From: Thermococcus sibiricus MM 739
GTDB taxonomy: Archaea; Methanobacteriota_B; Thermococci; Thermococcales; Thermococcaceae
NCBI RefSeq assembly: GCF_000022545.1
Contig: NC_012883.1
Span: 860,276-924,275, forward strand
Direction of reading: 5' to 3'
DNA: 64,000 nucleotides
Shown here piece by piece: positions 30,327 to 35,207 of the stretch (its first letter is position 1; every line of letters starts with the position of its first letter). The position numbers and the translations under genes are program-made. The notes under the pieces are model-generated. The model was not told where the DNA came from and ran no database searches. It saw only the letters and a program-made list of their open reading frames with translations.

Positions 30327-30536
30327 ATGGTAATGAGGTTATCAAAGATTTATGGAAAGCAAATATACAACACTGCTGGATATTACATAGGTTACGTTGA
30401 TGAAGTGCTTATCGAAATAGAAGCAGGAGAAAGTAGGATCTTGGCATTAGGACTGCCAGGAGAGAAAGTTGGAATTCCTTATGAAAGAGTATCTGCCATT
30501 GGGGACATAATATTAATAGAAGCAAAGAGAACCTAG
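30327..30536 (+). CDS. PRC-barrel domain protein
   Basis: A 69-residue protein made of one PRC-barrel: MRLSKIYGKQIYNTAGYYIGYVDEVLIEIEAGESRILALGL, then GIPYERVSAIGDIILI. Small stand-alone PRC proteins are common in archaea, some linked to rRNA processing (RimM-like) or division, function here unknown. ATG at 30327 follows GGTGGG; ATG 30315 is less likely. A TATA-like AAATTTAAAAGG around 30287 suggests its own promoter. Ends tail-to-tail with the DHH gene (4-bp overlap). Confidence 0.8.
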   Translation: MVMRLSKIYGKQIYNTAGYYIGYVDEVLIEIEAGESRILALGLPGEKVGIPYERVSAIGDIILIEAKRT

Positions 30537-31996
30537 GCCTCTTTCACGTTAAGTGCCTCTAGGAACTTCTCTGTTATTGCTTCTTCTACTAATTTTAAGA
30601 GGGAGTTTTTATCCTTGGCAAGTTTGAATATTCCAAGATGAATTCTAGCTCCTCCTGATTGTGCATGGCCGCCAGCACTTCCGATGTCTGTAAAAGCTTC
30701 TTTCAAGACTTTTCCTACATTGATCCTTATATCCCGTGTCCTAGCAGATATTTCAATCCTGTCATCAACTATTCCAAATACTAGAACTGTATTCACACCC
30801 TCAAGTCTGAGCAGAAAATCTGCCGACTCTGCAATGGCATCTCTATCTGTTATAAACCCAACATTCGAAATAATAACGTTTTTAAAAGTCTTTCTGTTTA
30901 TGATAGCTCTTGCCAGAACCTCTGCAGTCTCTACAGAAATGTCAGGATACTCTATTCTTTCCAAAATTTCATAATCTACCTTTCCTGCTAGGAATTCCAG
31001 TGCATCAAGATCTGCAGTACTAAATTTTGAAAACTTTTTGGTATCTGTGTATATACCATAGAAGAGGCTGGTTCCTAAAGTACCATTCACCTCCATGTTA
31101 AGGCTTTGAAGGTATTCTGCCATTATAGAAGCTGTGGAATTAACGTCAGGGCGTACATCAACAAATGCATCTCTAGGAAGCATTTCTTCCAAATTTTGCA
31201 AAAGTTGGTGGTGATCTATTAATATCTCTACTTTTTTCAGGTCCTCATCATCCAAAATACTAAGATTTCCATTTGGTTGACAATCAACTAATGCTATCGT
31301 AGAATGCCTTTTGACTTCATAGGAACCAGGAGAAACTTTTCGTATATCTAAGCCAAGTAGGTTAACAAATGCCCTATTCTCATGATGAGTTATCTCACCA
31401 CCATATACTATTGTACTTTTAAGTCCTGTATTTTGAGCGATAACTTGAAGAGCAACAGCACTGGCCATTGCATCTGGATCGGGATTGTCGTGCATCACTA
31501 TTAAGAGAGAATCACTTTTTTGTTTTATTTCTGAGAGTTTTTTAGATAATAAGGTTGCATTTTTCTTTTTACCGAGATTCTTAACTGTGTCCACTATAAC
31601 TTTAATTGTGGCTGCTTTTGGGGAAACGGCATAATCAATCTTAACATCTGTTTCAAATTCTTTCTTTATCTGGGATATAATCTCCTTTACAGTTGTATCA
31701 TCCGGGATTAAAACAAGTATTGGAACTTCAGAATTATTATTTCTTATTGCCTGAATGGTCTTTTTTATTCCATTGACATCCATTATAGTTATCACAACAA
31801 GATCTACTTTTTCAATTCCGGCCTTCAAAAGGGAAGCTGTGTATGAAAAATCACCTTGAATAACGTGAAATCCGCTTTCACTAAGAGATTTTGCTCGAAT
31901 TTCATTTTGTTCTATGATAATAACTTCGAATTCACCTTTCAGAGCCTGTGCAACACTTCTCCCTATACTTCCACCACCTAAGATCAACACCCTCAT
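30533..31996 (-). CDS. RCK/TrkA-N plus DHH-DHHA1 phosphoesterase fusion
   Basis: A 487-residue protein in two parts. Residues ~1-125 are a TrkA-N nucleotide-binding domain (LILGGGSIGRSVAQAL). The rest is a DHH phosphoesterase: MHDNPDPDAMASAVAL (motif I), ALVDCQPNG, the name-giving IDHHQ (~285), DVRPDVNSTASIMAEYL, and a DHHA1 ending with GSAGGHAQSGGARI. DHH-DHHA1 proteins hydrolyse nanoRNA, pAp or cyclic dinucleotides. The RCK sensor suggests a soluble phosphodiesterase controlled by a nucleotide ligand. GGTGAGTGCC precedes ATG 31996. Confidence 0.88.
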   Translation of the reverse strand: MRVLILGGGSIGRSVAQALKGEFEVIIIEQNEIRAKSLSESGFHVIQGDFSYTASLLKAGIEKVDLVVITIMDVNGIKKTIQAIRNNNSEVPILVLIPDDTTVKEIISQIKKEFETDVKIDYAVSPKAATIKVIVDTVKNLGKKKNATLLSKKLSEIKQKSDSLLIVMHDNPDPDAMASAVALQVIAQNTGLKSTIVYGGEITHHENRAFVNLLGLDIRKVSPGSYEVKRHSTIALVDCQPNGNLSILDDEDLKKVEILIDHHQLLQNLEEMLPRDAFVDVRPDVNSTASIMAEYLQSLNMEVNGTLGTSLFYGIYTDTKKFSKFSTADLDALEFLAGKVDYEILERIEYPDISVETAEVLARAIINRKTFKNVIISNVGFITDRDAIAESADFLLRLEGVNTVLVFGIVDDRIEISARTRDIRINVGKVLKEAFTDIGSAGGHAQSGGARIHLGIFKLAKDKNSLLKLVEEAITEKFLEALNVKEA

Positions 31997-32113
31997 GGCA
32001 CTCACCTTATAAGGACAATAATACTTAAATACATGCTTGAATGCAACATTAATAATAGGGGTCTCTCTAAACTTTATTCGACTTTTGATATATATATCTA
32101 ATGGTGGTGAAGA

Positions 32114-33790
32114 ATGGAACTTCCAACGATTACACCCATAGAGGAAAACATTGTGTGCACAAGAAAAGAGGAGCTTTTAAAATTAATGCGGAATGCTCTA
32201 TCGAATCAGGCTTTTAGTGGCCTATTTTTGAAGATATTCGCGAAAGATAAAGCTGAAAAGTACTATGTGACTTTGCTAATGGATAGACGAAAACTTTTGG
32301 CCTTAGAACTCCTACTATTATCTTCCCAGAAAAAAGTAATAGGTGATGAAACGCTGAATATCTTGAAAAAACTTTTGAATTACCCTCTAGTCGTAGACAT
32401 TTACGGCCTAGATGAAATAGAATTGAAGACCTCTATAACAGATAACATAGAGATATATAATACTACACCGAAAGTTGAGATAAATGAAATTTTTGAAGAG
32501 AATATTGTTGAACATGAAGAAATCATTGAAAAAGAGAGGATCTTAGAAAAGATCCTTAAAACAGAAGAAGCGAAAGTTGAAGAAACACATGAAAAACCAA
32601 AACCTCAAAAGAAAGAGAGAGCACCACCAGAAAAAAAAGAAGTTGAAAAAGAAAAGAAACATTTCAAACCAGAAATTATAGTAGAAGTAACGGGTGGAGA
32701 GATCTTCAAGCCTATCCTCGAGGAATATGGAAAAGAAGTCCTAAAGGAGGTGCAGACACTAGAGGATATCTCCCCTGAGCAAGTTAAAATAACCGGAGAA
32801 GTCGGTTCTGGCGTTATATACCTTCATGTGGACTTCTATGGGAGGAGTAACAAAGATCCCACCACATTCCAAACAGCGGAGAGGCAAATATTGTACTTTA
32901 TAAACAAACATTTGCCAATCATCTGGAGAAAGGCAGGGCTTAAACCCATCCTCAGCAGTTCTCACGCAAAGATATCTACCCCTAAAGGATCCTTTGAAAG
33001 TGAAGGAGAACCTACAACCTCTAAAAAACAAATTATTCCTCAAAAAACTGAAAGTAACATAACAGTTGAAGCTCACGAGAGTATTAAGCCATACTTTGCT
33101 ACGTATGCCAAAGCAATTCTCAAAGATATAGAGAATGGAGGAATTGAAGTCAAAAAAATGCACCTTGATATAAAAGGAAGAAGCGAGCATGAGATTAACT
33201 TAATCCTATGGGGCAATGCACCCGGAAAAACCAATGCTCAAGTAAGGGCCCTAGTTGAAGGTATTCTAAGAACACACACCAGAGAGATATCTAAAGCCCT
33301 AAATAAGTACATAACTATTCACCGAGTAGAAATCAACTTAGAAGAAGCTGAAGAAGTTTCAGAGAATGTAAAACAGATATTATCAAAGAAAGAGGAGCTA
33401 GAAAAAGAAATAGAAAAACTCCTTCAAGAGATGGGAGTAGATGACTTGTCTGCCTTAACTGAGGAAAAGAGAAGAGAAGTTGAAGAGAGTCTATTAAAGT
33501 CCAAAGTTGAACTAGCAGTAGAAGATTTAAGAAGACGAGTACAAGAGATGTTTAAAAACCTTCCAAATTCCGTATTTAGATGGATGAGACTGGATTGGGA
33601 ACTTCAGAGAAATGAGATTCTAATAAGTCTAGAAGCAAGCTTTGACAAGAGAGAGAGCTTAATAAAAGCAGTTTCAGACGATAGAATCATAGAAGATGCC
33701 CTTCAAATGCTTAATATGAGCATTCAAGAAATATCCAAGGAACACAACATTCCAATCAAAATCAAAAAGACAAACATTAATGTGAGATGA
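32114..33790 (+). CDS. Large coiled-coil hypothetical protein (DUF2226-like N-terminus)
   Basis: A 558-residue protein conserved-looking but of unknown role. The N-terminal ~105 residues (MELPTITPIEENIVCTRKEE start, then LFLKIFAKDKAEKYYVTLL) resemble DUF2226 of archaeal proteins. A charged Lys/Glu/Pro linker covers ~140-190. Two internally similar alpha/beta segments follow, at ~195-290 (IIVEVTGGEIFKPILEEYGKE) and ~320-420 (ITVEAHESIKPYFATYAKA), then a coiled coil (~430-490) and a C-terminal domain. The paired segments suggest an internal duplication. Divergent from the DHH gene with a 117-bp gap. Confidence 0.6.
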   Translation: MELPTITPIEENIVCTRKEELLKLMRNALSNQAFSGLFLKIFAKDKAEKYYVTLLMDRRKLLALELLLLSSQKKVIGDETLNILKKLLNYPLVVDIYGLDEIELKTSITDNIEIYNTTPKVEINEIFEENIVEHEEIIEKERILEKILKTEEAKVEETHEKPKPQKKERAPPEKKEVEKEKKHFKPEIIVEVTGGEIFKPILEEYGKEVLKEVQTLEDISPEQVKITGEVGSGVIYLHVDFYGRSNKDPTTFQTAERQILYFINKHLPIIWRKAGLKPILSSSHAKISTPKGSFESEGEPTTSKKQIIPQKTESNITVEAHESIKPYFATYAKAILKDIENGGIEVKKMHLDIKGRSEHEINLILWGNAPGKTNAQVRALVEGILRTHTREISKALNKYITIHRVEINLEEAEEVSENVKQILSKKEELEKEIEKLLQEMGVDDLSALTEEKRREVEESLLKSKVELAVEDLRRRVQEMFKNLPNSVFRWMRLDWELQRNEILISLEASFDKRESLIKAVSDDRIIEDALQMLNMSIQEISKEHNIPIKIKKTNINVR

Positions 33791-33829
33791 CCTTCGACCC
33801 CCCATAAGGATAAGAGTTTCAAAAAGTAA

Positions 33830-33886
33830 CCTCAGTACTCAAGATCTTCATCATGGCCAAGCTCAGATCTGCCGAGATCATCACCA
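33830..33886 (-). ncRNA. C/D-box guide sRNA (2'-O-methylation)
   Basis: On the minus strand four boxes occur in canonical order and spacing: C GTGATGA (33884-33878), 11-nt guide, D' CTGA (33866-33863), spacer, C' ATGATGA (33854-33848), 12-nt guide, D CTGA (33835-33832). The D guide complements TACTCAAGATCT; the base paired five nt from the D box would be the C of CTCAA, so position C34 of a tRNA-Leu(CAA) anticodon loop is a good candidate target. The D' guide complements ATCTGCCGAGA, probably in rRNA. It lies in a gene gap between convergent-free neighbours. Confidence 0.88.
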
Positions 33887-33985
33887 TTTAGATTTTCATC
33901 ATTGAATTTTTAAGTGCTGCGGTGATGACATTCAAATCTTTTTCGAAACGTTAAGTTTTTAAATTGAATTTTCATTCCCACATAC

Positions 33986-34855: not shown

Positions 34856-35029
34856 GACAAGGATCAAAAAGGGTCAGCTTTAGTTTCTTTTATCATTATT
34901 TGTTAGAAATGTTATCAGGATGAAGTAAATGAAGAAAGCTCTGAAGCTACCCTTAAAAATCTGATAAACAGCGTAAAGAATTTAAGGTATTGGGTTCTAT
35001 TATATATCGCCGACAGTGAGGGGACAATT

Positions 35030-35170
35030 AGTCTCCTCGCATGGGCTCGGTATACCCGCCTTCGCAAGGTATCGGGTTCTATGAGCGAAGTGTGCTCACA
35101 CCGAGCCCACAGGGCCGGTGCATCCACCCGCGCGAGAAATGAACGCGGGCCTCTGTTGCCGGCCTACAAG
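35030..35170 (+). ncRNA. H/ACA guide sRNA with two pseudouridylation motifs
   Basis: A GC-rich transcript in an AT-rich gap with TATA TTATATA (35000-35006) and a T-run after it (35171-35176). Motif 1: GGGCTCGG (35043-35050) pairs with CCGAGCCC (35101-35108), then ACA (35109-35111); inner stem CTTCGC/GCGAAG. Motif 2: GGCCGG (35113-35118) pairs with CCGGCC (35159-35164), then TACA; upper stem CCCGCG/CGCGGG (35127-35132/35144-35149) capped by a K-loop with GA and TGA; pocket arms TGCATCCA and CCTCTGTTG, 16 nt from ACA. Targets are not determined. The exact 5' end is inferred from the TATA box. Confidence 0.82.
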
Positions 35171-35207
35171 TTTTTTATTACAGCTGAAGATACTAGGTGA
35201 AAAAATT

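Follow-up and report, generated by a model that had tools for sequence, protein, structure and literature searches.

What is encoded on the minus strand within the 195-nt gap between two plus-strand genes of Thermococcus sibiricus MM 739, an open reading frame (ORF) of 558 amino acids and an EamA transporter gene, and on which RNA might its product act? The window that we analysed, a continuous stretch of 64,000 nucleotides (64 kb), carries here a whole C/D element, which extends on the minus strand from the C box at 33884 to the D box at 33832 (Table 1). As expected for an archaeal box C/D sRNA, the C, D', C' and D boxes follow one another in this order and all are perfect (RTGATGA/CTGA/RTGATGA/CTGA), as an earlier note on this DNA had stated without naming the strand. 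The strict motif occurs once on the two strands of the window, at this locus, and is absent from all 60 Markov-shuffled windows, which argues against a chance motif with no gene behind it. That reading, whose probability we put at practically nil, is already refuted by conservation: a sequence model (R1) built from 15 homologues detects the sRNA in 108 of 115 genomes from the class, among them 83 of the 84 of good quality, although this count may include some chance hits at its low-scoring end.

Table 1. Features of the box C/D locus, in positions of the 64-kb window
Feature	Position	Strand	Basis
Box C/D guide RNA core (C box to D box), 53 nt	33832..33884	-	perfect boxes, sole strict match in window
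C box GTGATGA	33878..33884	-	sequence
D' guide TCTCGGCAGAT, 11 nt; core CTCGGCA complementary to tRNA-Leu U9GCCGAG15	33867..33877	-	tRNA ranking, permutation, site ranking
D' box CTGA	33863..33866	-	sequence
D'-C' linker GCTTGGCC, 8 nt	33855..33862	-	sequence
C' box ATGATGA	33848..33854	-	sequence
D guide AGATCTTGAGTA; predicted target tRNA-Leu(CAA) ACTCAAGATC, C34 at -5	33836..33847	-	10 contiguous Watson-Crick pairs
D box CTGA	33832..33835	-	sequence
TATA-like CTTAAAAA, ~22 nt upstream of C box; putative promoter	33907..33914	-	inferred from sequence
T5 run, ~6 nt downstream of D box; possible terminator	33821..33825	-	sequence

The TATA-like element lies at a similar distance in most relatives of the genus, and a scan for bacterial-type terminators found none. 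As transcription signals for a stable small transcript, the TATA-like element and the T-run are only suggestive. The fold of the sRNA does not stand out (z=0.3), which is usual for C/D RNAs. In the linker between the D' and C' boxes, a GC-NNN-GC pattern comes back in several genera (g1, g4, g6).

Which nucleotide would the D guide address? The tRNA-Leu(CAA) gene of the same genome (G000:C1:817201-817285) contains GGACTCAAGATCCAC, and guide bases -2 to -11 form 10 contiguous Watson-Crick pairs with its ACTCAAGATC. C34 lies opposite guide base -5, the fifth base upstream of box D, so that both the length and the register of the pairing are those required of a guide. The earlier note had predicted that the D guide pairs with the anticodon-loop sequence of tRNA-Leu(CAA), that the fifth base rule points to the first anticodon base, and that outer guide bases may stay unpaired. 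All of this is borne out, the unpaired bases being -1 and -12; the note had also proposed aligning the guide with the genome's own tRNA-Leu(CAA), where missing complementarity would have told against the idea, and the complementarity is present. Among the 45 T. sibiricus tRNAs, tRNA-Leu(CAA) ranks first for the D guide. The next in rank, Leu(UAA) and Ser(CGA), each need one G-U pair, which in Leu(UAA) is located at the target nucleotide itself. These results support the prediction that the sRNA should direct a methyl group onto C34, the first anticodon base of tRNA-Leu(CAA): in an RNP with L7Ae, Nop5 and fibrillarin, the proteins that bind archaeal box C/D sRNAs, the D guide would bind the anticodon loop and thereby place a 2'-O-methyl group on this nucleotide.

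The target and its guide are both conserved. ACTCAAGATC is found unchanged in every tRNA-Leu(CAA) that was read, and the D guide is nearly invariant across the class; every Thermococcaceae homologue read has its core GATCTTGAGT, whereas their second (D') guide, linker and flanks vary. A Leu(CAA) guide sRNA of the Thermococcales should have a D guide that fits the anticodon loop of tRNA-Leu(CAA) from the same genome and that is conserved in homologues, and the T. sibiricus sRNA shows both. In two other families of the class the D guide is GATTTTGAGT, which places a G-U pair at G37. Compared at the level of sequence, the homologues show the D guide to be the constant part of the sRNA and the second guide its changeable part. 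The tRNA-Leu(CAA) genes of one other family, f2 (L218, L219, L220, L221, L222), have an intron after position 37. All five introns start with ATC, so the pairing with the D guide also fits the precursor.

The neighbourhood is conserved as well. The EamA gene adjoins the sRNA in most of the Thermococcaceae loci read, including nine named Thermococci/Thermococcus MAG loci. On the other side, the ORF of 558 amino acids (32114-33790, plus strand) adjoins the sRNA in many Thermococcaceae; it diverges fast, down to approximately 30% identity, and has no match in Pfam or NCBIfam. A protein of 490 amino acids with TrkA-N and DHH/DHHA1 domains (30533-32005, minus strand) is found in the neighbourhood of the sRNA in several relatives. 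The H/ACA RNA HgcF (Pab35) of Rfam lies approximately 1.1 kb from the C/D gene (35009-35179, plus strand; 158.5 bits), and the two are also near each other in the locus L122.

Does the second guide have a target too? The earlier note assigned none, and a ranking of possible sites now yields two candidates, the D-arm of tRNA-Leu and a site in 23S rRNA. In most Thermococcaceae the D' core reads CTCGGCA or CTCGGCG, across 23 distinct D' guides. The complement of this core, TGCCGAG, is U9-G15 of tRNA-Leu, and the version with A is fully Watson-Crick paired to U9GCCGAG15. The best matches of the D' guide among the 45 T. sibiricus tRNAs are four tRNA-Leu isoacceptors of the TTGCCGAG type; permutation against the genome's own tRNAs gives p=0.0145 for the T. 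sibiricus guide and p = 0.002 to 0.07 for other versions. For approximately 4600 sites in rRNA and tRNA-Leu we took the duplex energy in 15 genomes, each with its own rRNAs, and ranked the sites by the mean. The tRNA-Leu D-arm is second by mean energy (-16.9 kcal/mol) and leads when sites are compared by their weakest genome (-15.6 vs -14.5 kcal/mol for 23S 1388). This rank is only suggestive, because tRNA contributes 74 of the approximately 4600 positions and a place among the top two would arise by chance in an estimated 3% or so of cases.

It is tempting to hypothesize that, in addition to the D guide on the anticodon loop, the D' guide pairs with U9-G15 in the D-arm of tRNA-Leu, where it might methylate G10 or just anchor the substrate. 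A parallel can be seen in the paralogous sRNA predicted for tRNA-Leu(UAA), whose D' guide pairs over 10-11 bp with the variable arm of that tRNA. However, the pairing with the D-arm is just 7-9 bp, and the predicted nucleotide moves from G10 to U9 in the 12-nt guides of Pyrococcus and some Thermococcus. We know of no 2'-O-methyl at G10. Moreover, four Thermococcus species have a different, CCAGGC-type guide, and the D' guides of other families are unrelated. We regard this addition to the main reading as tentative and rather unlikely. That both guides contact the same tRNA-Leu, at the anticodon and at the D-arm, so that one RNP would recognise two distant sites, we consider slightly less likely still. 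If true, such two-site recognition of tRNA-Leu would contradict the published statement that one guide of tRNA-targeting sRNAs is without a target (PMC7994747). The analysis offers a second contact with this tRNA that can be put to the test.

The CCAGGC-type D' guides (L137, L156, L181, L193) can pair with GCCUGG, which occurs in the D-arms of tRNA-Leu and other tRNAs. They were compared with plus-strand tRNA loci, with T. sibiricus tRNAs as proxy. As proof of tRNA-Leu targeting they are weakened, since D-arms of other tRNAs pair better in two of the four species.

The site with the best mean energy in the ranking is 23S 1388 (T. sibiricus numbering; CCTGCCGGG), at -18.1 kcal/mol over the 15 genomes. 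A D' guide that directs methylation near this position would make the sRNA a mixed tRNA/rRNA guide. Against its lead in mean energy stand several observations: the duplex requires a G-U pair within the invariant core, where a T of the guide lies opposite a G; guides in which CTCGGCA is followed by another A place it against a C of the 23S rRNA, a mismatch; the weakest genome reaches just the -14.5 kcal/mol given above; and the register is off by one in the 12-nt guides. We judge such a mixed guide to be distinctly unlikely. A further 23S match, at 746 within T. sibiricus positions 742-752 (TTTTGCCGAGG), forms as many as 11 pairs with the D' guide most frequent in Thermococcus. This match, whose loop is hypervariable, is refuted as a target because the other aligned genomes, those of relatives, have the guide but not the 23S sequence.

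The D' guide might also be an orphan that has drifted from an older target and has none now. This would agree with the rule for tRNA-targeting sRNAs stated in the review (PMC7994747), and with the fact that the D' guide differs between the families of the class while the D guide is constant; the D' guides of the other families yielded no consistent target. The retention of a six-base core in most of the family, however, is unlike drift, and an orphan guide seems to us possible but doubtful.

Whatever the role of the D' guide, the locus most probably (at a probability of roughly 0.93) is a box C/D guide sRNA gene, likely the orthologue of the Pyrococcus sRNA predicted for tRNA-Leu(CAA). That it is a box C/D gene rests on the motif, on complementarity in the right register within the same genome, on class-wide conservation and on synteny in most of the Thermococcaceae loci read. 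According to a review (PMC7994747), three Pyrococcus species have C/D sRNAs predicted to act on the wobble bases of Leu(CAA), Leu(UAA), Met and Trp. The T. sibiricus gene is therefore ordinary in kind, its function having been predicted already for these three species (PMC7994747; PMC7668247). The present analysis extends the range of the Leu(CAA) wobble guide to the class as a whole, in the 108 of 115 genomes mentioned above, beyond the three Pyrococcus species of the review. In P. furiosus, C34 of Leu(CAA) is listed as predicted and is not among the modifications detected in the analysable tRNAs (Wolff et al. 2020, PMC7668247).

How does the T. sibiricus sRNA compare with known systems? The Pyrococcus C/D sRNA for the wobble base of tRNA-Leu(CAA), credited in the review (PMC7994747) to Gaspin 2000 and Clouet d'Orval 2001, has the same predicted target. 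The Pyrococcus homologues in our set (L158-L166) share the D guide core with T. sibiricus and have the D' guide CTCGGCAGG. They differ in the length of the D' guide (12-13 nt vs 11 nt in T. sibiricus) and of the D'-C' linker (mostly 3 nt vs 8 nt). The genomes G018, G046 and G051 are, we presume, those of P. abyssi, P. horikoshii and P. yayanosii. The box layout is also that of the Rfam family snoPyro_CD (RF00095), whose gathering cut-off is 45 bits. The homologues of the presumed P. abyssi and P. horikoshii exceed it with 56.8 and 51.7 bits, while the T. sibiricus copy, at 28.5 bits, falls below it. RF00095 appears to rest on boxes rather than on one target.

The paralogous C/D sRNA for the wobble base of Leu(UAA), found in Pyrococcus and one other genus (L167-L169, L172-L174), has the same layout, and its predicted target is position 34 of the sister tRNA. 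It differs in its D guide, GATTTTAAGT, and in a D' guide that fits the variable arm of tRNA-Leu(UAA), a pairing that matches the G47 predicted for Leu(UAA) as quoted in PMC7668247. In T. sibiricus, model R1 finds no second sRNA locus. The same nucleotide, C34 of tRNA-Leu(CAA), is modified by TrmL in bacteria and by Trm7 in eukaryotes. These are protein enzymes that work without a guide RNA, in contrast to the archaeal guide sRNA, and C34 would thus be a case of convergent solutions.
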